A program made the translations under genes and the position numbers. Source: an uncultured Shimia sp. (GTDB taxonomy: Bacteria > Pseudomonadota > Alphaproteobacteria > Rhodobacterales > Rhodobacteraceae). From it: a stretch of 64,000 nt of DNA. The stretch spans positions 124,001 through 188,000 of the forward strand of contig NZ_CANMJE010000002.1 in NCBI RefSeq assembly GCF_947498095.1, given 5' to 3'. The notes beneath the pieces are model-generated. The model saw only the letters and a program-made list of their open reading frames with translations. It had not been told where the DNA came from and did no database searches. Shown here piece after piece: positions 10,515-58,077 of this stretch (the stretch's first letter is position 1; each line of letters begins with the position of its first letter).

Positions 10515-10559
10515 CTTCATTTTGGTCAAAGTACTCCGGGGTGCGGGGCAGCGCCCCGC
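10515..10559 (-). repeat. Dispersed intergenic repeat, copy a
   Basis: Read on the minus strand just after the maeB stop codon: a hairpin (GCGGGGC, 3-nt loop, GCCCCGC; 10543-10559), then CCCCGGAGTAC followed by TTTGACCAAAATGAAG. It is one of seven related copies in the window and may act as the maeB 3' end. Confidence 0.7.
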
Positions 10560-20299: not shown

Positions 20300-20371
20300 G
20301 GGGGCCAGCCCCCCTCGCCGTCTTTTGGCAAAGACGCCGTTTCCCCCGGGATATTTGGGGCCAAAAGAAGA
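20300..20371 (+). repeat. Dispersed intergenic repeat, copy b
   Basis: Two hairpins (GGGGGC-CA-GCCCCC at 20300-20313; CGTCTTT-TGGC-AAAGACG at 20319-20336), then CCCCCGGGATATTT followed by GGGGCCAAAAGAAG. It is the left arm of composite element 1. Confidence 0.7.
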
Positions 20372-20515
20372 CCTGAGTACTCCCCAACCTGACGGTCAGG
20401 GAGCTTCTTCAGGCGCGGCCATCGGCGTCCCCGCCTGTACCGCGCCAACAGGGTAGATCGTTAAGGTTAACAACCCCTTGCTTCTTTTGGCCTTAAGTAT
20501 CCCGGGGGAGGTCCG
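20341..20515. repeat. Composite intergenic element 1 (inverted arms plus conserved core)
   Basis: Two copies of the dispersed repeat face each other (b on plus, c on minus) around a core at 20401-20471 containing GCGGCCATCGGC, GCCTGTACCGCGCC and TTAAGGTTAAC. The reverse complement of element 2 (28246-28460) has the same arms, the same two identical core blocks at the same spacing and the same TTAA-rich end. It fills the 328-bp gap between the M48-like gene and the acyl-CoA synthetase; no gene is seen in this gap. Confidence 0.7.
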
Positions 20516-20549: not shown

Positions 20550-22178
20550 TCAGAGTTTTGCCGCAACTTTGCGCAGTTCGAATTTCTGAATCTTGCCTGT
20601 GGACGTTTTGGGGAGTTCTTGGAACACAACGCGTTTCGGCGCCTTGAAGCCGGCAAGAGTTTCGCGGGAAAAGGCGATGATCTCGGCCTCGGTTGCGGAT
20701 TGCCCTTCAAGCAGTTCAACAAAGGCACAGGGCACTTCGCCCCATTTGTCGTCCGGCTTGGCCACCACTGCTGCCATTGACACGGCCGGGTGTGCCATCA
20801 GCGTGCCTTCGACCTCGACGGACGAGATGTTCTCGCCACCCGAGATGATGATGTCCTTGGCGCGATCGGCGATCTGCACATAGGTGTCGGGATGTTGCAG
20901 TGCGATGTCACCGGAATGAAAATAGCCGCCCTTGAACGCTTCCGCCGTGGCTTCGGGGTTCTTGAGATACCCCTTCATCACCGAATTGCCGCGAATGACA
21001 ATCTCACCTTGGGTTTTTCCGTCCATCGGAATTTGCGCCATGTTTTCGTCCATGACGGTGATGTGTTCCATCATCGGAAAGGCGATGCCCTGACGTGCTT
21101 TGATGGTTGCGACCTCAGGCTTGTCGAGGGCTCCCCACTCGTCGTCTTTCCAAAGGCATTCGGTGACATGACCATAGGTTTCCGTCAGCCCATAGACCTG
21201 CGTGACGTTGAATCCAAGGTCTTCGATTTTGGCAAGGGTCGCTGGGGCAGGGGGGGCGCCTGCGGTAAAGACCTCAACCGTGTGGTCAAAAGTGCGTCGT
21301 TCCTCATCCAATGCATTGACGATCATATTCAGAACGATGGGCGCGCCACCGAAATGCGTGACCCCTTCGTAGTGGATGGCGTTATAGATCGCCTGCGCGG
21401 TGATATCGCGGCAGCACACCAGCGTGCCGCCAATCATTGGCATCATCCACGTGTGGTTCCAGCCGTTACAGTGGAACAGGGGCACAATCGCCATAAAGAC
21501 CGGGTGCAGCACCATGCGCCAGCTGACCACTGTGCCCATGGTCATGAGGTATGCCCCACGATGGTGACAGACCACGCCCTTGGGCCGCCCGGTGGTGCCC
21601 GAGGTATAGTTCAGCGACAGGCTTTCCCATTCGTCTTCTGGCATGATCCAGTCGAACGCTGGATCGCCGGTTTCCAGCAGAGCCTCATAGTCGGTGTAGG
21701 ACCCGCTGGCGTGATAGCCCGCCTGATCGTCGGCGACCTCGATGATGATCGGCTTGGGGCCTTCCATCGCGTCAACCGCAGCTTTGACCGTGTCCATGAA
21801 CTGCGGGTCGACCAGCACAACTTTGGCCTCGCCGTGGTCAAAGATGTAGGCCACGGTGTCGACGTCCAGCCGGGTGTTGATCGTGTTCAAAACAGCGCCA
21901 CATGCCGGGACGCCGAAATGCGCTTCGGCCTGTGCCGGCAGGTTCGGGATCAGTGTGGCAACGACGTCTCCGGGGCGAACCCCCAATCCGATCAGCGCCG
22001 AGGCAAGACGAGTGCAACGTTCGTAATACTCGGCATAGGTCTTGCGGTGCTTTCCATAGCTGACCGCGAGGGTATCGGGGAAAACATCACGCGCCCGACG
22101 CAAGTGCGACAGCGGTGTCAAAGGCACGAAATTTGCCGCGCATTTGTCCAGCCCAGTTTCATCAACCATCCAGCCCAT
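20550..22178 (-). CDS. AMP-forming acyl-CoA synthetase
   Basis: This is a 542-aa ANL-family ligase of the plant AAE/bacterial medium-chain acyl-CoA synthetase type. It shows LNTINTRLD, LNYTSGTTGRPKGV, VYGLTETYG, the hinge SGGENISSVEVE and the C-terminal catalytic Lys motif LPKTSTGKIQKFELR. It probably activates a medium-chain or branched carboxylate for beta-oxidation; the substrate cannot be read from sequence. It differs from DmdB at the N-terminus. The ATG at 22178 follows GGGAGGG. It is divergent from an EamA transporter, with palindromes between. Confidence 0.88.
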   Translation of the reverse strand: MGWMVDETGLDKCAANFVPLTPLSHLRRARDVFPDTLAVSYGKHRKTYAEYYERCTRLASALIGLGVRPGDVVATLIPNLPAQAEAHFGVPACGAVLNTINTRLDVDTVAYIFDHGEAKVVLVDPQFMDTVKAAVDAMEGPKPIIIEVADDQAGYHASGSYTDYEALLETGDPAFDWIMPEDEWESLSLNYTSGTTGRPKGVVCHHRGAYLMTMGTVVSWRMVLHPVFMAIVPLFHCNGWNHTWMMPMIGGTLVCCRDITAQAIYNAIHYEGVTHFGGAPIVLNMIVNALDEERRTFDHTVEVFTAGAPPAPATLAKIEDLGFNVTQVYGLTETYGHVTECLWKDDEWGALDKPEVATIKARQGIAFPMMEHITVMDENMAQIPMDGKTQGEIVIRGNSVMKGYLKNPEATAEAFKGGYFHSGDIALQHPDTYVQIADRAKDIIISGGENISSVEVEGTLMAHPAVSMAAVVAKPDDKWGEVPCAFVELLEGQSATEAEIIAFSRETLAGFKAPKRVVFQELPKTSTGKIQKFELRKVAAKL

Positions 22179-22206
22179 CAAATCCCTCCCTTGATTCTGC
22201 GGCTCA

Positions 22207-22280
22207 TGTCGCTTTACGACAGACTATTCATGTCAGTTACCCCTCGTGTAGTGCGGAACCGACAATTGTCAGACAATTAG
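22207..22280. promoter_or_regulatory. Palindromes between divergent genes
   Basis: TGTCG-CTTTA-CGACA (22207-22221) and the perfect palindrome GACAATTGTC (22261-22270), followed by a second GACAATT 11 bp on, lie in the 110-bp gap between the acyl-CoA synthetase and the EamA gene. These are candidate operators; the regulator is unknown. Confidence 0.35.
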
Positions 22281-22288
22281 AGGCAGAA

Positions 22289-23185
22289 ATGACCGCAAGC
22301 GTCAATAACCGTCCTGTCGCTGCCGCGCTTTCGATGCTGTCGGCAATGGCCACGATTGGGTTCATTGACAATTTTGTTGGTGAAATCTCGGCGCACGTCA
22401 GTGTCTGGCAGTTCATCTGGATGCGCTCAACGGTGATGTTTCCTTTGCTGATCCTGATGTCCCTAGTTGGCCTTGGAACGCTTTGGGCGGTTCGTTGGCG
22501 TCCGGTTCTGGCGCGCGCCACAATCATCACCTGCGCCATGGTGCTTTACTTTGGCTCTCTCGGCCTGATGCCGATCACGCAGGCGCTTGCCGGGTTGTTC
22601 ACTTCGCCAATCTGGGTGTTGCTCATCAACCTTGTTTTTATGCGGCGACGCATTGGCCCCTGGCGCATCGCTGCTGTGTTCATCGGGTTTGCAGGCATCT
22701 TGTTGGTGCTGCAACCGGGGACCGACGGCTTTGGGCTTTCGATGCTGATGCCTGTGGCTGCGGGACTGTTCTATGCCGTCTCGTCCATTGCCACCCGTAG
22801 CTGGTGTGCTGGTGAAAGCGCTTTAGCCCTTTTGGGGACCAATATGGCCGTCATGTGGGTGGTTGGCGGGCTGGCGACACTGCTGCTTGGCATTACACCT
22901 TTAGAGCAACAGGATTTCCTGACCCGGTCGCCATCCTGGGAGATTTGGCCCATCGTGCCTTACATCCTTTTGCAAGCCGTGGGGTCCTTGACGGGGGTTT
23001 TTCTGATTATCCGGGCTTATCAGATGGATGAGCCGACAAACGTCGCCGTCTTTGAGTACTCGGTGATGCTGTTCGGGCCGGTCTTTGCCTTTCTGTTGTT
23101 TGGACAGGGGGTGAATGGATTGCAAGCCATCGGGATTGCCATGATCGCCGCTTCGGGCGTGATTATCGCAATTCGCTCAAAGTAA
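22289..23185 (+). CDS. EamA/DMT-superfamily transporter
   Basis: The 298-aa protein has about ten hydrophobic helices in two EamA repeats (GILLVLQPGTDGFG at the end of the first; IIAIRSK at the C-terminus). It is an inner-membrane drug/metabolite transporter of unknown substrate. The ATG at 22289 after GAGG is preferred; the ORF track start is 58 codons too long and crosses the acyl-CoA synthetase promoter. It is divergent from that synthetase. Confidence 0.88.
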   Translation: MTASVNNRPVAAALSMLSAMATIGFIDNFVGEISAHVSVWQFIWMRSTVMFPLLILMSLVGLGTLWAVRWRPVLARATIITCAMVLYFGSLGLMPITQALAGLFTSPIWVLLINLVFMRRRIGPWRIAAVFIGFAGILLVLQPGTDGFGLSMLMPVAAGLFYAVSSIATRSWCAGESALALLGTNMAVMWVVGGLATLLLGITPLEQQDFLTRSPSWEIWPIVPYILLQAVGSLTGVFLIIRAYQMDEPTNVAVFEYSVMLFGPVFAFLLFGQGVNGLQAIGIAMIAASGVIIAIRSK

Positions 23186-23379
23186 GCCTGACGATTCGAG
23201 CCGCTTAATTGCGGCGGTATTTCCGTCTGATCTGAGGCCAATTCCCCTATGGAAATGCCATTGTGCGAACATTGGAAACACTGCCCCAAAAAGACCTCAT
23301 TTCAGGCCAAAGGTATCCTTACAAATTTAAACAAATGAACTTGCTGCTAAATCCACCGCCAGACGCTCAGGGGAAAGAA

Positions 23380-24033
23380 ATGTTTGGATGGACACCTACA
23401 ACTGAAACACGCACCAGACCGGTGGCACCCACGCAAGCTCTGCGCGACCCAGTGTTATTGGGAGCGGGCTGCGGGATTGTCGAGGGGACACAAGTCGCCA
23501 CGCAAGCTGGCTGGCAACCCGCCGAGACCCTGCGCGCCGGAGATGAGGTTCTGACATTTGATGGTGGAATGCAGCGGGTCACCGCGGTTCTGCGTGATGA
23601 GGTCTGGAGTGGTCTGGATCAATGTCCCGAAGCCCTGTGGCCGCTCTTGGTCGAAGCCGAGACCATCGGCAACCAAAACGATCTTTTGGTCATGCCGCAT
23701 CAGGGCGTTTTGATCGAAAGTGACGATATCAGTGACCGCTGGGGTGATCCCTATGCGGTGATCCCCGCCGCAGCGCTTGAAGTGCTGGAAGGGGTTGAGC
23801 GCCACGAACCCTATGGAACTGTCGAAGTTGTGCTGCCGGTCTTTGAAGAGGACCAGATGGTTTTTGCAGACCACGGCGCACTGATGTTCTGTCAGTCCCA
23901 CTGGGGACTGAGCGCGGGCATCTTGCCGAAATTCGGCGCCGCAGGAAATTACAACATGCTGCCCATGGCGGCCGCGATCCGGTTATTGGAAATGACCTAT
24001 ATCCCGGATTATGCAGACTACGCGACCGCTTGA
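23380..24033 (+). CDS. Stand-alone Hint-domain protein
   Basis: The 217-aa protein has a Hint (Hedgehog/intein) fold domain: CGIVEGTQVATQAGWQPAE gives the N-terminal Cys and first strands, AGDEVLTFDGGMQRV the second block, and VMPHQGVLI the conserved His-containing block. Such solo Hint proteins are common in Roseobacter genomes and often tailor or process secreted proteins; the role here is unknown. The ATG at 23380 with a GGGAAAGA site is preferred to upstream starts at 23335 or 23263. The 194 bp before it hold no visible gene. Confidence 0.75.
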   Translation: MFGWTPTTETRTRPVAPTQALRDPVLLGAGCGIVEGTQVATQAGWQPAETLRAGDEVLTFDGGMQRVTAVLRDEVWSGLDQCPEALWPLLVEAETIGNQNDLLVMPHQGVLIESDDISDRWGDPYAVIPAAALEVLEGVERHEPYGTVEVVLPVFEEDQMVFADHGALMFCQSHWGLSAGILPKFGAAGNYNMLPMAAAIRLLEMTYIPDYADYATA

Positions 24034-24067
24034 ATCCCCCCCCCCCACCGGACAGGCGCTGCATGTT

Positions 24068-24103
24068 AAAAAACCGCCCGGAAGTTTTCTTCCGGGCGGT
24101 TTT
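24068..24103. terminator. Strong bidirectional rho-independent terminator
   Basis: AAAACCGCCCGGAAG pairs with CTTCCGGGCGGTTTT around TTTT, with T-rich flanks on both strands. It sits between the convergent Hint gene and fadJ. An 11-C homopolymer (24036-24046) lies just before it, after the Hint stop. Confidence 0.93.
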
Positions 24104-24126
24104 AATTTTAGAGCGCTGCAAAGCTA

Positions 24127-26319
24127 TCAGGCTGCGGCGGCCTGCTGACCAAAGCGGCCATAGAAGCTTTGGTTCTTCTCGGCCATCTCACGCAAGAGCG
24201 GCGGGCAAGCAAAGCGTTCACCGTATTTCGCGGTCAGCTCATCGCACTTCTCGGCAGCCCAGGCAGCCCCAACGATGTCCAACCACGAGAACGGACCACC
24301 CGACCAAGGCATAAAGCCCCAGCCCAGGATCGCGCCCACGTCGCCTTCGCGGATGTCTTCCAGCACGTCTGCTTCCAACGCGCGGACCGCTTCCAGAACC
24401 TGAGAGAAGATCAGGCGGTGCTGAACTTCAGTCACGTCTGGTTGTTCTTCCAACTGCGGGAACTTGTCGGCAAAGCCTTTCCAATAGCCCAGACGCTTGC
24501 CTTTTTCGTCATAGTCAAAGAACCCGGCCTTGGCTTTACGACCAAAGCGGCCCTCGTCAACCATCCAGAAGGTCACGTCATCGGCAATCGACTTTGGATA
24601 GGCATTGCCCATCGCCGCCATCGTGGCCTTGGCGATCTTGGCGCCAAGATCAAGCGAAGTCTCATCGACCAGCTGGATCGGTCCGACAGGGAAGCCCAAG
24701 AGTTGAGCCGCGTGGTCCAGAAGCTGCGGCGCAACGCCTTCGCCAGCCATCATCACACCTTCGTTGATGTAGGGAATGATACAGCGGTTGGCATAGAAGA
24801 AGCGCTCGTCATTCACAACGATTGGCGTCTTCTTGATCTGACGCACATAGTCCAGCGCCTTGGCGACCGCACGAGGGCCGGTTTCGCGGCCCTTGATGAT
24901 CTCGACCAGTGCCATCTTCTCGACAGGCGAGAAGAAGTGGATGCCGATGAACTGTTCCTTGCGCACAGACGCTTCGGCCAGACCGGTGATCGGCAGCGTC
25001 GAGGTGTTCGAGGCAAAGATCGCGTCCTCAGGGATGATCGCTTCGACCTTTTTGGTCATCTCGGCTTTGACGGCAGGGTCTTCAAACACGGCCTCAATGA
25101 TCAGGTCCACGTCCGACAATGCGTTCAGATCGGTGGTGGCGTTGATCTTCGCCAGCATCGCGGTCTTTTGCTCTTCGGTGGCCTTCTTGCGCTTAATGCC
25201 CTTGTCCATGAAGCTCTCGGAATAGGCCTTGCCGCGATCCGCTGCCTCTTGGTTGGTGTCGATCAGCACAACATCCATACCCGCCTTGGCCGAAACCAAA
25301 GCAATACCAGCGCCCATCATGCCCGCGCCCAGCACGCCAACCTTTTTGACGCGTTGATCGGGTACATCGGGGCGGTTCGCGCCCTTTTCCAGTGCCTCCT
25401 TGTTGATGAACAAGGACCGGATCATGGCTGAGGACGAGGGGTTCATCAGCACATTGGTGAACCAACGCGCTTCGATCTTGATCGCCGTGTCAAACGGCAC
25501 CATCGCGCCCTCATAGACTGCGCTCAGCAGCGCCTTGGCCGCTGGATAGACGCCCCATGTGTTGCCATGCACCATCGCGTTGGCACCGACAAAGGTCATG
25601 AACCCTGCAGGGTGATAGGGTTCCCCACCAGGCATCTTATAGCCCTTTTCGTCCCAAGGTTTGACAATCTTCGGCTCGGACAGAACCCAGGCCTTGGCAT
25701 CCGCCATCGGGTCTGCGCTGACCTCGTCGATGATACCCGCCATTTTGGCTTTCTTGGGGTCAACCATCTTGCCTTGCAGCAGGAAGGGCGAGGCCGCCAT
25801 AGCGCCCATCTTGCGCACCATGCGGGTTGTTCCGCCACCGCCCGGGAAAATGCCGACCATGATCTCAGGCAGGCCGATCTTGGCCTTGGGATTGTCTGCC
25901 GCGAAAATGCGGTGTGTCGCCAAAGGCAGTTCCAGACCAATGCCCAGCGCGGTGCCGGGCAGGACGCAGGCAATCGGCTTGCCGCCCTTGTTGGTCTTTG
26001 GGTCCATACCTGCGCGTTCGATCTTGCGCAGAACGCTGTGCATCGACATCACGCCTTCGAACATGCCTGCGGCTGGGTTGTCGCCACCGCGTTTGCCCAT
26101 TTCCGCCAGCACATTGAGGTCCATGCCGCCCGCGAACGAGCCTTCTTTGCCAGACGTGATGACCGCGCCTTTGATGGCGTCGTCTGACAGCACCGTGTCT
26201 ATGATGGCGTTCAAGTCCTGAAACGCCTGCTCCGTCATCACGTTCATCGACTTGCCAGCCGTGTTCCAAGTGATGATCCCGACGCCGTCTGCGTCTACGG
26301 AGAGATTGAAATCGCTCAT
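24127..26319 (-). CDS. fadJ: Fatty acid oxidation multifunctional enzyme (enoyl-CoA hydratase/3-hydroxyacyl-CoA dehydrogenase)
   Basis: This 730-aa fusion has an N-terminal crotonase domain (about 1-200, [16 protein letters not shown]) and a C-terminal NAD-dependent hydroxyacyl-CoA dehydrogenase (about 330-720, [13 protein letters not shown]; catalytic His in [11 protein letters not shown]). It performs the hydration and oxidation steps of beta-oxidation. It pairs with the thiolase gene 12 bp upstream as the alpha/beta complex. FadJ versus FadB naming cannot be decided from sequence alone. Confidence 0.94.
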
Positions 26320-26331
26320 GTCCTTAACTCC

Positions 26332-27543
26332 TTACACGCGTTCGATGATCGTTGCTGCACCCATGCCGGATGCAATGCACAAGGTTGCCAGACCGACCTC
26401 TTTGTCCGAGCGCTCCAGCTCGTCCAGCAATGTGCCGATGATGATAGCACCAGTTGCGCCCAGCGGGTGACCCATGGCGATCGAGCCGCCGTTAACGTTG
26501 ACCAGTTCCGGGTCGACATCAAAGGCCTGCTGGAAGCGCATCACAACGCTGGCAAAGGCCTCATTGACCTCAAACAGGTCGATGTCACCAATGTTCATGC
26601 CACTGTCAGCAAGGATCTTTTGCGTCGCAGGCACAGGCCCGGTCAGCATGATCGTCGGATCGGTGCCGATCTTACAGGTCTGGCGGATGCGCGCGCGCGG
26701 TTTAAGCCCGTATTTCTTACCGAACTCTTCGTTGCCGATCAGCACCCCGGCCGAGCCATCTACGATGCCCGACGAGTTGCCCGCGTGGTGGATGTGATTT
26801 ATCTCTTCCAGATGCGGGTACTTCATCAGCGCGATCTTGTCGAAACCGGGCATGACCTGACCCATTTCGGCAAAAGATGCTTTCAAAGCGCCGAGGCTCT
26901 GCATGTCGGTTTGCGGACGCATGTATTCGTCATGATCGAGGATCGGCAGACCGCTCACGTCATTCACAGCAATGATCGACTTGTCGAAACGGTTATCGTC
27001 CCACGCCGCCTTGGCGCGGCGCTGCGATTCAACGGCCAATGCATCAGCCTGATCACGACTAAAGCCGTACTCGGTGGCGATGATATCCGCCGAGATGCCT
27101 TGCGGTACAAAGTATTGATCCATTGCCACTGTTGGGTCGACAGCAATCGCCGCTCCGTCCGAGCCCATGGCCACACGGCCCATCATTTCCACGCCACCAG
27201 CGATATAGGCATCACCCGCGCCACCTTTGACCTGGTTGGCCGCAAGGTTCACGGCTTCCATGCCGGACGCACAGAAGCGGTTAATCGCCAGACCGGGGAT
27301 CGACTCGTCGAGATCCGAGGCCAGTACCGCGGTCCGGGCCAGGCAGCCGCCCTGTTCTTTCACTTGAGTGACATTGCCCCAGACCACGTCTTCAACAGCA
27401 TGGCCGTCCAGACCGTTGCGGTCTTTCAAGGCGTTCAGCACGGTTGCCGACAGGCGCACCGATGTGACTTCGTGCAGGGCGCCGTCCTTGCGGCCCTTGC
27501 CGCGCGGCGTGCGCACCGCGTCATAGATATAGGCTTCGGTCAT
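26332..27543 (-). CDS. fadA: Acetyl-CoA C-acyltransferase (3-ketoacyl-CoA thiolase)
   Basis: This 403-aa thiolase catalyses the cleavage step of beta-oxidation. It has the nucleophile Cys in [11 protein letters not shown], the GHPLGATGA His motif and the C-terminal Cys in [10 protein letters not shown]. The gene is 12 bp upstream of fadJ and 13 bp downstream of the GST gene, indicating one transcript. FadI is an alternative name. Confidence 0.94.
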
Positions 27544-27556
27544 AGTCTTCTCCTAT

Positions 27557-28195
27557 TCAGGCGCGGTCAGCGGGGCTGCCGGGCATCAGGTCATAAGGGT
27601 GTTTCCAGCCCGCGAGGGCTTGAATATTGGAAAGCCAGCGGTCGATGTTCGGCCAGTCGGCACGGTTGAACCCAAAGGGTTCGTCGTAAAACAGGTATCC
27701 ACAGCAGGAAATGTCAGCATTGGTGAGGCCATCTCCGACAATCCAGTCGCGCCCCTCAAGATGTTTGTCGAGGATCGCATAGGTCCCCTTGAGACGGCCC
27801 TGATTAAAGGCGATCACCTCTTTGGGCTGTTTGTCTTCGGGCAGGAAATTCATCAGGAACCGTGTCGGACCTGCCACTGCGCTGAGCTTGGAATTGTCCA
27901 AGAGTACCCAGCGAAAAATCTCGTAGTTCTCAGCATGGTCCTTGCCGCCGAACTTGCCGGATTTTTCTGTGACGTAGGCCAAAATCGCGCCGGATTGGCT
28001 GGTCTTGAAGTCGCCATCAACCAAAACCGGGGCCTCGCCCATTGCATTAACGGCCTCGCGGTATTCAGGGCTGCGGGTCTCGCCTGCGAAAAAGTCGACA
28101 TAGACAGGTTCCCAGTCCAATCCGCTCAACTCCAGAGCAAGGGCTGCCTTATAGGAATGTCCGGATTCGCCGAAGCAGTAGAGTTTGATGGTCAT
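27557..28195 (-). CDS. Glutathione S-transferase family protein
   Basis: The 212-aa protein has an N-terminal thioredoxin-like domain (residues 1-80, KLYCFGESGHSYKAALAL; cis-Pro region GEAPVLVDGDF and the QSGAIL glutathione-contact motif) and a helical C-domain. It is likely a cytosolic GST of beta/nu-like type. It is co-directional with fadA-fadJ (13-bp gap), so it may protect against or process an electrophilic acyl-CoA intermediate; this role is inferred from context. Confidence 0.88.
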   Translation of the reverse strand: MTIKLYCFGESGHSYKAALALELSGLDWEPVYVDFFAGETRSPEYREAVNAMGEAPVLVDGDFKTSQSGAILAYVTEKSGKFGGKDHAENYEIFRWVLLDNSKLSAVAGPTRFLMNFLPEDKQPKEVIAFNQGRLKGTYAILDKHLEGRDWIVGDGLTNADISCCGYLFYDEPFGFNRADWPNIDRWLSNIQALAGWKHPYDLMPGSPADRA

Positions 28196-28223
28196 GTGTC
28201 TCTCCCAATTGTCGCTGTCGCAG

Positions 28224-28274
28224 CGGGGGTTTCACACCCCCGTACCCCCGTGGAGTATTTTCGCCAAAATGAAG
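28224..28274 (+). repeat. Dispersed intergenic repeat, copy d
   Basis: Hairpin CGGGGGT-TTCAC-ACCCCCG (28224-28242), then CCCCCGTGGAGTATTTT followed by CGCCAAAATGAAG. It is the left arm of composite element 2. Confidence 0.7.
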
Positions 28275-28460
28275 TCCGGGGTTTAGACCTCTTTAAGGTT
28301 AACGGCCTAGGCTCGTGGGCGCGGTACAGGCTGGAGAGCCGATGGCCGCCCAAGGTGAAGCTCTGCTGCCCCGTTCGGGTGCGTCCTAGACAGACCGAAC
28401 CCGGGTGGCAGAGTGGGCCATACGCTTCATTTTGGCCCAAATACTCCCGCCGGAGGCATC
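28246..28460. repeat. Composite intergenic element 2 (inverted arms plus conserved core)
   Basis: The element fills most of the 305-bp gap between the GST and acyl-CoA dehydrogenase genes. Arms d (plus) and e (minus) face each other around a core at 28293-28363 that is the reverse complement of the element 1 core. The blocks GCGGCCATCGGC and GCCTGTACCGCGCC are identical, and TTAAGGTTAAC is retained. There is an extra ~60 bp of unrelated sequence before arm e. I see no ORF in the gap. Confidence 0.7.
28425..28460 (-). repeat. Dispersed intergenic repeat, copy e
   Basis: Read on the minus strand: GCCTCCGGCGGGAGTATTT followed by GGGCCAAAATGAAG. This copy and copy g share the GCCTCCGGCGGG form instead of a long hairpin. 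Confidence 0.7.
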
Positions 28461-28500
28461 CCGAACTCTCGACCCTGTGCAGCATCGCGGTTCTTTCTCC

Positions 28501-29640
28501 TTACAAGCTGCGTGAGATCAGCTCTTTCATGATCTCATTGGTGCCGCCATAAATCCGTTGTACGCGGGCATCGACCCACATTTCCCCGATGGGATATTCT
28601 TGCATGTAACCATAGCCGCCAAAGAGTTGCAGGCACTCGTCGAGCACTTCTCCTTGCGTGTCGGTGATCCAGTACTTGGCCATTGCAGCCTTTTCGGCGG
28701 TCAGCTTGCCCGCGATCAGTTCTGAAATGCACTCGTCCAGAAAGGCGCGTGCGACCTTGGTTTTGGTCAGGCATTCCGCCAGTTTGAACCGGGTGTTCTG
28801 GAACTGTATGATCGGCCCACCAAAGGCCTCGCGTTCCTTGCAATAGGCGATGGTGCGCTCAACTGCACCTTCCATCGAGCCTTGGGCGATGCAGGCAATG
28901 ACCAAACGTTCCTGGCCCAGTTGCTTCATCATCTGATAAAAGCCCTGGCCTTCCTCGCCGCCAAGGATGTTTTCCGGCGGGATTTCGACGTTGTCAAAGA
29001 ACAGCTCAGACGTATCCGCCGCGTGGCAGCCAATTTTCTCAAGGTTGCGGCCGCGTGAAAAGCCTTCTGCATTGGCCGTTTCCACCACCACCAGCGAGGT
29101 GCCCTTGGCGCCGGCTTTGGGGTCGGTCTTGGCCGCTACAATCACCAGGTCGGCATGTTGGCCGTTGGTGATAAAGGTCTTGGATCCTGACAGCCGATAG
29201 GCGTTGCCATCTTTCACAGCGCGGGTTTTGATGCCTTGGACGTCGGAGCCACCCGAGGGTTCGGTCATCGCCAGCGCGCCCACCATTTCGCCCGTGGCCA
29301 TTTTGGGCAGCCAGCGTTGTTTCTGCTCTTCCGAGCCGTATTCCAGAATGTAATGCGCGACGATGCCCGAATGGATGCCGTGGCCCCAGCTGGCCAGATT
29401 GGCGCGGTTGGACTCCATCAGGATCACGGCCTCGTGGCCGAAATCGCCACCAACGCCGCCGTATTCTTCGGGGATAGAGGGGCACAAAAGACCCAGCTCA
29501 CCGGCTTCATTCCAGGTGCTGCGATCCATCTCGCCCTGTTTGCGCCATGTGTCGAAGCGGGGGGCCCATTCGTCGTTGATGAACTTGGCCGTCATTTCGG
29601 CCAGCATCTGGTGTTCGTCGGTCATCCAAGCAGATGTCAT
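28501..29640 (-). CDS. Acyl-CoA dehydrogenase
   Basis: This is a 379-aa FAD-dependent acyl-CoA dehydrogenase, first step of beta-oxidation or branched-chain acyl-CoA catabolism. The FAD/substrate motif [16 protein letters not shown] and the C-terminal [11 protein letters not shown] (catalytic Glu position) are visible; the length is normal for the four-chain type. I choose the ATG at 29640 with CAGGAGAG before it. The preceding 70-aa gene lies 21 bp upstream. Confidence 0.94.
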
Positions 29641-29661
29641 GGGTCTCTCCTGTTCCAAGGA

Positions 29662-29874
29662 TCAGCGCTTGCGCGCTTCAAGCTCGGAATTGAATTGTCT
29701 CAGTTTCACGGCCAGCATTTCGTCGTCGGTGACGGCGTTGAAATTTTCGAACAGAAAGGACAGCGCCTCGCCTTCGTCCAGACCCGCCTCGCGCGCGAAA
29801 TTTCGCAGGGAACGATAGCCATCTTCGGTCATCGCTGCATTGAAACGGCGGGTCAGTCTAAAACGTTTTGGCAT
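29662..29874 (-). CDS. Small conserved hypothetical protein, 70 aa
   Basis: The protein starts MPKRFRLTRRFNAAMTEDGYRSLRNFARE and is basic at the N-terminus and acidic/helical after that, without membrane segments. It lies between two acyl-CoA dehydrogenase genes on the same strand with gaps of 38 and 21 bp, so it is very probably expressed with them. The amphipathic pattern could be a small DNA-binding or protein-binding module, but I do not recognise a family. Confidence 0.65.
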   Translation of the reverse strand: MPKRFRLTRRFNAAMTEDGYRSLRNFAREAGLDEGEALSFLFENFNAVTDDEMLAVKLRQFNSELEARKR

Positions 29875-29912
29875 CTGTCCTCTCTTTTGTTTTCAGTGTG
29901 TTAGCCTTCGTC

Positions 29913-31688
29913 TCAGAACGCTTCCGCGTCCAAAGCCATCACTGTGTCAGCACCCGACTGAATGCGCGCCAGATGCATGGCCGTGGCGGGCAAGCGTCGC
30001 GCCATGTAGTAGCGGCCTGTTGCCAGCTTCGTCTCATAGAACGCAGCGTCAGAGGTGCCGGAAGCCAGTTGTGACGTCGCGGCTTTTGCCATTTTGGCCC
30101 ACATCAAACCAAGGCATACGTGACCAAAGAGATGCATGAAGTCGTTTGATCCTGCCAGCGCGTGGTTGGGGTTCTTCATGCCGTTCTGCATGAAGTACAT
30201 GCCAGCCGCCTGCAGGTCTTTGGATGCGGCTTTCAGCGGCTCAACGAAATCTTTCAAGACTTCGTCGTCGCCGTTGTCTTTGCAGAAAGATTTGACCAAC
30301 TCAAAGAACGCCATCACGTGTTTGCCGCCATCTGTTCCCAGCTTACGGCCTACCAGATCCAACGCCTGAACGCCGTTGGCGCCTTCGTAGATCATCGCAA
30401 TGCGAGCATCGCGGGTGAACTGGCTCATGCCATGCTCTTCGATATAGCCGTGGCCGCCATAAATCTGCTGCGCCTTGACGGTCATGTCGTAACCTTCGTC
30501 GGTCAGGAAGCCCTTGATGACCGGGGTCAGCAGGCTGACCAGCCCGTCGGCATCCTTGTCGCCTTTGCGATGCGCTGCGTCGATCATGGTTGCGCCCCAC
30601 AGGATGAACGCGCGCGCGCCTTCGGCAAACGACTTCTGGTCCATCAGTGAACGGCGGATATCAGGGTGCACGATCAGCGGATCGGCCGGGCCATCGGGGT
30701 TCTCGGCACCAGTTACGGCGCGGCCCTGCAGGCGGTCCTTGGCATAGTCCACGGCGTTCTGATAGGCGACTTCAGCGGCTGAAAGCCCCTGCATGCCAAC
30801 ACCCAGACGCGCTTCGTTCATCATGGTGAACATGGCACGCATGCCTTTGTTTTCTTCACCCAGCAGATACCCGGTGGCTTCGTCATAGTTCAGCACACAG
30901 GTCGAGTTGCCGTGGATACCCATCTTTTTCTCGATATTGCCGACTGAGACGCCATTGCGCGCGCCAGGGGTGCCATCTTCGTTAACGATGAACTTGGGCA
31001 CGATGAACAGCGACACACCCTTGATGCCCTCGGGGCCGCCGGGGATTTTCGCCAGAACAAGGTGGATGATGTTGTCGGCCATGTCGTGATCACCGGACGA
31101 GATAAAGATCTTCTGACCGGAGATTTTGTAGCTGCCGTCACCGGCGGGCTCTGCCTTGGTCCGCATCAGACCCAGATCGGTGCCGCAATGCGGCTCGGTC
31201 AGGTTCATGGTGCCGGTCCACTCGCACGAAACCATGTTGGGCAGATAGGTGTTCTTCTGTTCGTCGGTCCCATGCGCCAGGATTGCGGCAGCCGCGCCGT
31301 GTGTCAGGCCCTGATACATGGTGAACGCCTGGTTCGAAGACGAGAACATCTCGCCCACAGCGGTGCCCAGCACATAAGGCATGTTCTGGCCGCCATATTC
31401 TTCGGGCATGTCCAGACCGGTCCAGCCGCCTTCTTTCACCTGCTCAAAGGCGTCTTTGAAGCCGGTTGGCGTATAAACCACACCGTTTTCCAGACGGCAG
31501 CCTTCGTGGTCGCCGACCACGTTCAGAGGGGCCAGCACATCGCCGGTCAGCTTGCCGGCTTCTTCTAGCACAGCATTGGTGAAATCGGCTTCCAGCTCAT
31601 CATAGCCGGGGGTGTCGGATTGCGAGACATTCAGCACATCATGCAAAACGAACTGGAGGTCTTTTACGGGGGCGGTATAGGTCGGCAT
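29913..31688 (-). CDS. Acyl-CoA dehydrogenase with C-terminal extension (DmdC-like family)
   Basis: This 591-aa protein is of the long acyl-CoA dehydrogenase type that includes 3-methylmercaptopropionyl-CoA dehydrogenase (DmdC). It has FAD-binding [25 protein letters not shown], and [20 protein letters not shown] with the catalytic Glu. An acetyl-CoA-dehydrogenase-like C-domain follows. The genomic setting next to fadA/fadJ and a MerR regulator suggests a general fatty-acid role rather than DMSP demethylation; the family alone cannot separate these. It starts 15 bp after the MerR stop. Confidence 0.9.
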
Positions 31689-45755: not shown

Positions 45756-45840
45756 GGCTTTGCCCCGGCACCAATGCTTCGTATTGCCGAAAGTACTCTG
45801 GGGTGAATTGGTCCTTTGGGACCAAGAGGGGCAAAGCCCC
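45755..45840 (-). repeat. Dispersed intergenic repeat, copy f, plus long-range inverted repeat
   Basis: Read on the minus strand: hairpin GGGGC-TTT-GCCCC (45828-45840), hairpin TTGGTCC...GGACCAA (45808-45825), then CCCCAGAGTACTTT followed by CGGCAATACGAAG ending at 45777. In addition, GGGCTTTGCCCC (45755-45766) directly after the allE stop codon pairs with GGGGCAAAGCCC (45828-45839). Confidence 0.65.
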
Positions 45841-58041: not shown

Positions 58042-58077
58042 CTTCTTTTGGCTCCAAATATCCCCGCCGGAGGCATG
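58042..58077 (-). repeat. Dispersed intergenic repeat, copy g
   Basis: Read on the minus strand: GCCTCCGGCGGGGATATTT followed by GGAGCCAAAAGAAG, whose final AAG touches the hydrolase ATG. It fills the whole 43-bp gap between the ScfR regulator and the hydrolase, so here it may supply the ribosome-binding region. Confidence 0.7.

Follow-up and report, generated by a model that had tools for sequence, protein, structure and literature searches.

RNA guides of bacteria are known with CRISPR (clustered regularly interspaced short palindromic repeats), TnpB/IscB, IS110 and Argonaute, or as small RNAs (sRNAs) that pair with mRNAs. Short repeats dispersed along bacterial genomes include the DNA uptake sequences, which lie at gene ends in thousands of copies and form facing terminator-like pairs, and the repetitive extragenic palindromes (REP) and bacterial interspersed mosaic elements (BIME) that go with REP-associated tyrosine transposases (RAYT), which are dispersed intergenic palindromes found in facing pairs near gene ends. 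The bridge RNA of IS110/IS1111 elements has two programmable segments, recognised by their covariation with DNA, which pair over ~8-14 nucleotides (nt) (PMC11208160), and TldR represses with guides as short as 6 nt (PMC13418256). Here we describe a family of predicted sRNA genes, together with the dispersed repeats that they match, starting from two loci in a stretch of 64,000 nt (the window) in the draft genome of an uncultured Shimia sp. (4.08 Mb, called G000 below; contig NZ_CANMJE010000002.1, called C2, positions 124,001 to 188,000). The agreement between RNAs and repeats suggests that Rhodobacteraceae possess a system of RNA-guided recognition that had gone unrecognised. This small RNA was previously unlisted and Rfam holds nothing similar: neither the window nor the two loci gave a match above the gathering threshold, and the best sub-threshold scores were far under the cut-off. 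A description of the repeats or RNAs was not found in the literature searched, subscription papers and preprints lying outside that search, and an sRNA study in Ruegeria pomeroyi was compared by keyword only, not by sRNA sequence (PMC4809877).

A family of predicted small RNA genes

The sRNA-1 locus lies on the minus strand (20341-20515) and the sRNA-2 locus on the plus strand (28252-28447) of the window. Both genes have the same layout (CtrA-type box, -10 element, 29-nt hairpin, 11-nt single-stranded linker and second hairpin; Table 1), and both RNAs are predicted to fold alike, as a hairpin, exactly 11 unpaired nt and another hairpin, with no need of the repeat arm that follows. For sRNA-1, hairpin 1 folds as (((((...((((....))))....))))), the whole RNA has a z of -3.3 and transcription would start at about 20443. 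The first-pass annotation had taken locus 1 for two facing copies of a dispersed repeat around a conserved core of ~70 bp, found again in inverted orientation at a second place. The facing arms are real (20342-20370 and 20481-20509, 29 nt, 90% complementary) and emerged from unprompted repeat detection. So is the inverted core match, which independent repeat detection placed at 20401-20449 and 28315-28363 (49 nt, 80%) and which aligns at 76% over ~71 nt, with E ~1e-6 within the genome; the second core also lies between facing arms (Table 1). Conservation across the family, however, holds only for the 29-nt hairpin, whose pattern is GCGGTACAGGC-kGGRRm-GCCGATGRCCGC, and for the promoter, while the rest of the core is variable and contains the linker. 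The arms are indeed dispersed, with BLAST matches at ~30 further places in G000, but they are not copies of one repeat, since their sequence is specific to the locus: GGCCAAAAGAAG with GATATTT at locus 1 and GCCAAAATGAAG with AGTATTT at locus 2.

The core is not confined to these two loci. BLAST, which the first-pass annotation had proposed, returned only the two in its own genome and found the core in 71 of the 147 genomes searched, plasmids included; a third, diverged copy (sRNA-3) lies in G000 at C2:58380. The exact 27-nt pattern occurs in at least 118 stretches of public genomes, and at two mismatches or fewer all 24 relatives tested have one to five matches each, a few of those with two mismatches looking spurious, the control pattern having none. 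The family is present in most Rhodobacteraceae tested, and in a class-wide sample the RNA was frequent in Rhodobacteraceae and sporadic in other Alphaproteobacteria. One congeneric genome (G012) has two copies that likewise lie ~9 kb apart. Six of the genes (L056-L061) are borne by mobilisable or conjugative Rhodobacterales plasmids (NZ_CP010607, NZ_CP035423, CP031755, NZ_CP025411, NZ_CP085163 and NZ_CP081057), where some adjoin replication or transfer genes and several retain an upstream site resembling the guide.

Locus-level statistics were drawn from 152 sRNA loci and are inflated by phylogenetic dependence. The closing pair of the hairpin is G-C in 76 loci, G-U in 41, A-U in 33 and A-C in one, so that 150 of the 152 have G-C, G-U or A-U; another pair is U-A in 110 and U-G in 40 (again 150 of 152), the loop-closing pair alternates between G-C (94) and U-A (58), and in sRNA-3 the outer stem CGGU/ACCG is exchanged for CGCC/GGCG. 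Since these pairs include wobbles, the strand of the RNA is fixed. The -10 element sits 7 nt upstream of the hairpin, with A in 73% and T in 79% of the loci at -12/-8. A TTAA-N7-TTAA box, the known CtrA consensus, stands at -39/-40 with at least six of eight matches in 85% of loci versus 21% in shuffles, and its position is constant in ~150 homologous loci. The second hairpin is more stable than shuffles and is followed by a T-tract (TTTT) in 32 of 152 loci, the two window copies not among them; in alphaproteobacteria outside Rhodobacteraceae it is often a textbook terminator. The first-pass annotation had left the choice between a MITE-like element (miniature inverted-repeat transposable element) and a structured RNA, and the latter is supported by the strand-fixing G-U pairs, the compensatory changes, the promoter and the second hairpin. 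Judged from its sequence, each locus is a small RNA gene of ~65-95 nt that combines a conserved hairpin as scaffold with an unpaired guide, predicted to be 11 nt long (up to ~16 nt in other alphaproteobacteria), and a terminator-like hairpin, and it is probably expressed from its own promoter under the control of CtrA. Two other candidates were rejected: a leader RNA of the downstream gene, because the two copies are oriented oppositely relative to their neighbours, and a small open reading frame after a conserved GGGGA-N5-ATG, of which neither length nor sequence is conserved as judged by eye.

Agreement between guide, loop and dispersed sites

The essential point, which the first-pass annotation had missed, is that the linker and the hairpin loop match the arms and repeats throughout the genome. 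At most loci the linker is related to both arms, being similar to the one ahead of the promoter and complementary to the inverted one that follows. The guide of sRNA-1 (GCCTGAAGAAG) matches both its flanking arms (GCCAAAAGAAG) save at positions 4-5. Over the 152 loci the mean score of a guide against its own left arm is 9.5, compared with 6.3 when linkers are swapped between loci, and 9.4 versus 7.1 against the right arm; own linkers exceed the threshold in 82% of cases on the left and 79% on the right, swapped ones in 14% and 23%, respectively. Where arms match, mismatches affect 0-4% of loci at guide positions 1-3 and 7-9, a favourable estimate since loci with good guide-arm scores had been chosen. 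At position 6 (68-69% of loci), and often at position 5 too, a G of the guide corresponds to an A of the site, which amounts to a wobble against the complementary strand. The outgroup locus L426 has a match of 16 nt in which only position 6 is altered (AAAATGTTTAGAGAGG versus AAAATATTTAGAGAGG); the same wobble recurs in distant lineages (L426 and L420). Some loci have only the upstream arm and others only the downstream one, and L422 has a perfect 13-nt site downstream in the sense orientation, hence a simple stem inside the transcript is no explanation.

The match has a second part. Ahead of the arms stand RRTATTT and two or three free letters, and the loop dinucleotide equals the RR letters of this flank for 114 of 118 left arms (mean 57, maximum 73 in shuffles) and 102 of 107 right arms (mean 47, maximum 63), in a test of 10,000 shuffles that ignored relatedness. 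The dinucleotide changes repeatedly among the RNAs of one genome, and at L428 a rare loop, GGTG, accompanies the rare flank TGTATTT (loop TG and this flank both being one-off cases). By this match the hairpin loop is a second part of the predicted guide, and the matched site has the form 5'-RRTATTT-N2-3-guide-3'.

Comparison of congeneric genomes (25, made up of G000 and 24 others of the genus) and of an orthologous locus provides stronger evidence than these locus-level statistics. Sites were counted with exact-match patterns, so the counts are lower bounds. A family C repeat, AGTATTT-NN-GGCAATACGAAG (GCAATACGAAG), was seen first in sampled stretches of G000 without a known RNA; a search for an RNA with a family C-like linker then led to a diverged gene, whose linker GCAAAGCGAAG is identical at 9 of 11 positions and which sits between two facing family C copies. 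Exact GCAATACGAAR sites (family C) number 26 in G000, one in G012 and none in the 23 other congeneric genomes. At the position orthologous to sRNA-3 lies an RNA of G001 whose linker is GTGCGTTGAAG and whose arms are GTGCATTGAAG, and the GTGCATTGAAR sites predicted from this linker number 35 in G001 and none in the other 24 genomes. A third family, GGCCAAAAGAAR, is found in G002 (47 sites) and G000 (11) only, both of which hold an RNA flanked by such arms. The sRNA-3 locus shows synteny among three species, whose arms there differ. Guide and sites, as read in these genomes, therefore co-vary beyond shared descent, and each genome examined in detail has its own site families, mostly close behind genes and including the pair that flanks the RNA gene. 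A further genome, G027, has GATATTT-NNN-GAACAAAGATGG repeats (loci L277 and L280), for which no cognate sRNA has been found so far; on the rule seen above a fourth RNA is predicted, with a guide like GAACGGAGATG, as on a Phaeobacter plasmid.

A survey of 74 sites with a simple gene caller found a same-strand upstream gene in 51, mostly ending 20-100 nt before RRTATTT; 27 sites lay between tandem and 24 between convergent genes, 15 were antisense and eight divergent, and between convergent genes there are often two facing sites ~10 nt apart. One orthologous intergenic site has three different arms and two flank dinucleotides in three species, two of which retain the adjoining GGGGTGAATTG-like sequence, and other sites were gained or lost between species. 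Such exchange of the arm is unlike a transposon with fixed ends, and since the terminal GAAG is common to the arms, the rewritten part is ~7 letters. Because predictions from linker to sites and from sites to linker held, and because three arms occur at one orthologous site, the RNAs behave as guides for cognate repeats. At sites of G000 and G001, a few constant modules precede RRTATTT across families and species (GCCTCCGGCGGG or GGGGCnnnGCCCC...CACCCCGG), the arm being exchanged and the left module staying.

Table 1. Position of the RNA genes, their arms and examples of dispersed sites in the window (RNA parts are predicted)
Feature	Position	Strand	Basis
sRNA-1 hairpin 1 (scaffold), GCGGTACAGGC-GGGGAC-GCCGATGGCCGC, loop GGGA	20415..20443	-	coordinates, fold, pair counts
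sRNA-1 guide (linker), GCCTGAAGAAG	20404..20414	-	fully unpaired in predicted fold
sRNA-1 hairpin 2, terminator-like, without U-tract	20380..20403	-	predicted fold
sRNA-1 -10-like TACCCT, 7 nt ahead of hairpin 1	20450..20455	-	motif
sRNA-1 CtrA-type promoter region, GCAAGGGGTTGTTAACCTTAAC	20460..20481	-	family motif TTAA-N7-TTAA at -39/-40
sRNA-1 left arm, upstream of promoter, CCCGG-GATACTT-AAG-GCCAAAAGAAG	20481..20506	-	repeat detection, arm match
sRNA-1 right arm, inverted, downstream, CCCGG-GATATTT-GGG-GCCAAAAGAAG	20345..20370	+	repeat detection
sRNA-2 hairpin 1, loop GGAG	28321..28349	+	pattern match, fold
sRNA-2 guide CCAAGGTGAAG, unpaired; arms CCAAAATGAAG	28350..28360	+	arm match, predicted fold
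sRNA-2 hairpin 2	28361..28413	+	predicted fold
sRNA-2 -10-like TAGGCT	28308..28313	+	motif
sRNA-2 left arm, GG-AGTATTT-TCG-CCAAAATGAAG	28252..28274	+	arm match
sRNA-2 right arm, inverted, GG-AGTATTT-GGG-CCAAAATGAAG	28425..28447	-	arm match
Dispersed site, family A (cognate to sRNA-1)	58042..58062	-	repeat detection, BLAST
Dispersed site, family B (cognate to sRNA-2)	10515..10535	-	repeat detection
Dispersed site, family C (goes with sRNA-3, outside the window, ~G000:C2:58370-58410)	45777..45797	-	family C pattern

Locus 1 is found downstream of a gene for an AMP-binding (acyl-CoA synthetase-like) protein and locus 2 between genes for an acyl-CoA dehydrogenase and a glutathione S-transferase. 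Both sRNA genes are at or inside a cluster for fatty-acid beta-oxidation (20550-31688), which comprises an acyl-CoA synthetase-like protein, a 3-hydroxyacyl-CoA dehydrogenase, a thiolase and acyl-CoA dehydrogenases.

Possible mechanism and rival explanations

Taking the RNA gene, its two-part match and its co-divergence with the sites as given by the sequence, we infer base-pairing, a target molecule and an effect. RNA and sites very probably form a cognate set that pairs. The whole is best explained, in our estimate with modest confidence, by a family of guide-like sRNAs with cognate genomic sites that are read as DNA at gene ends. Loop and guide would pair in order with one strand of the site, the AAATA of that strand spanning the hairpin. 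Probably with a protein partner, the RNA would occupy the DNA behind genes, where binding might insulate gene ends or stop read-through, and the site just upstream of the sRNA promoter might serve autoregulation; it could be speculated that the wobble in mid-guide prevents cleavage or tunes affinity. That the target is DNA stands at about an even chance: it is favoured, though not decisively, by the many sites that lie between genes in tandem and whose complementary strand is transcribed from none of the predicted genes, by the left-only and sense-orientation sites (L101, L132, L136, L170, L179 and L422), and by site families that are homogeneous in all settings. Transcriptional insulation as the effect is a tentative and rather doubtful proposal.

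Several observations seem difficult to reconcile with this explanation. Some guides are decayed or match one arm only (L336 and L038), and repeats found within 8 kb of loci in other genomes usually fail to match the local guide, although this last test is uninformative because there are several families per genome, and whole-genome counts resolved the point. Support for a terminator-like structure at the sites is inconsistent, as is the presence, among sites of G000 and G001, of a hairpin that ends exactly at RR. No partner protein or common neighbour gene emerged from a crude clustering of neighbouring proteins, whose output was limited to shadow frames and frames of syntenic copies. The TnpB/Cas12f-type zinc ribbon (PF07282) was nowhere above the Pfam cut-off in the 25 congeneric genomes, in a search that was positive for control genomes and would miss a strongly diverged protein; a TnpB/TldR partner is accordingly not supported. 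Finally, neither the loop match nor the N2-3 gap that separates TATTT from the guide match resembles the known layout of protospacer-adjacent motif and guide in nucleases.

The main rival, which we deem possible yet unlikely, is that the RNAs are trans-acting antisense sRNAs. Guide and loop would then pair with the reverse transcript of the site (5'-CUUCnnnnnnn-NN-AAAUA-YYCC-3'), e.g. in the 3' untranslated region or read-through of a convergent gene, with AAAUA bridging the hairpin in a pseudoknot-like manner and a nuclease being recruited or antisense read-through stopped. Loop and guide are collinear with, and antiparallel to, one strand, as is usual when an sRNA pairs at two sites. Many sites are in a convergent setting or follow the stop codon of an antisense gene by 1-10 nt, and RNA-RNA duplexes naturally accommodate a G-U wobble such as that at guide position 6. 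This would leave unexplained the ~23-47% of sites that lie in the sense orientation between tandem genes (7 of 30 in G001; in G000, 13 of 29 for family C and 7 of 15 for family A), where complementary RNA is unexpected, the sense site upstream of the sRNA promoter and the homogeneity of site families in every context.

A more far-reaching version of the DNA-reading explanation, which we regard as improbable, is a new class of RNA-guided DNA recognition in which a CtrA-regulated RNA with a two-part guide marks gene ends genome-wide and a linked molecular drive, such as gene conversion that depends on the guide or a bias in the DNA acquired, rewrites sites in place, giving rise to species dialects.

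Motility, gene-transfer-agent and DNA-import genes are controlled by CtrA in these bacteria, and the CtrA box suggests that the RNAs are co-expressed with them. A link to DNA exchange would offer a drive for the spread of repeats, as for the dialects of uptake sequences (PMC3630211), against which weighs the small number of sites.

A MITE-like element, with inverted terminal arms and a small core moving as a unit, would account for the arms that surround the core at most loci and are dispersed genome-wide. It is nonetheless very improbable, and as the main explanation it was refuted: arm sequence varies from locus to locus and from species to species (even at the syntenic sRNA-3 locus), dispersed copies are single or facing arms without a core, genomes have few cores and dozens of arms, and at the orthologous site one arm was swapped for another in place, with its flanking context kept. 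Equally remote is a structure acting in cis only, in which the linker, complementary to the right arm if G-U is allowed, lengthens the terminator stem and the left arm is accidental; left-only loci match all the same, the loop dinucleotide equals the flank on both sides, the right arm is not needed for the fold of the two window RNAs, and dozens of unlinked sites track the arm sequence genome by genome, the whole-genome counts of three families contradicting this reading.

Relation to known systems

This RNA family, with its two-segment match, supplies a concrete hypothesis for lineage-specific intergenic repeats for which no explanation was found, and a guide code (loop dinucleotide plus 11 nt) that can be tested at once. 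It presents a case of a guide and dozens of sites turning over jointly, and may lead to a new effector protein.

The bridge RNA of IS110 is similarly a non-coding RNA with two segments that covary with DNA; it resides in a transposon end beside the recombinase and pairs with target and donor through internal loops (PMC11208160). Here, by contrast, a hairpin loop and a linker form the two segments, which would be read along a single strand of the same site, the cognate sites consist of gene-end repeats dispersed in dozens of copies, and no DEDD recombinase gene is adjacent at the two window loci, where this was tested directly and only there, the flanks being genes of fatty-acid metabolism and unrelated genes. 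TnpB and TldR also combine a short guide with a site that has a fixed 5' motif, and a nuclease-free regulation is possible (PMC13418256), but in the present RNAs the predicted guide is internal and followed by a hairpin, motif and guide match are 2-3 nt apart, and the RNA loop matches the opening dinucleotide of the motif. A repeat-spacer array, as in CRISPR, was not found, the RNA genes being single and isolated at separate chromosomal places. Own promoter and seed-like single-stranded segment, both predicted, are shared with ordinary trans-acting sRNAs, and so may be a terminator hairpin, whereas the cognate 'regulon' consists of short genomic repeats that form one homogeneous family and turn over with the seed in each species. 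The repeats themselves recall REP and BIME in being dispersed between genes and in facing pairs near gene ends, yet they have no constant REP palindrome or GTAG foot, their arms are replaced between species and each family is matched by an RNA gene. Species-specific dialects of a short dispersed repeat are likewise a feature of the DNA uptake sequences of Neisseriaceae (PMC3630211), from which the present repeats differ in having ~35-50 copies per family, several families per genome and an RNA gene that matches each family examined.
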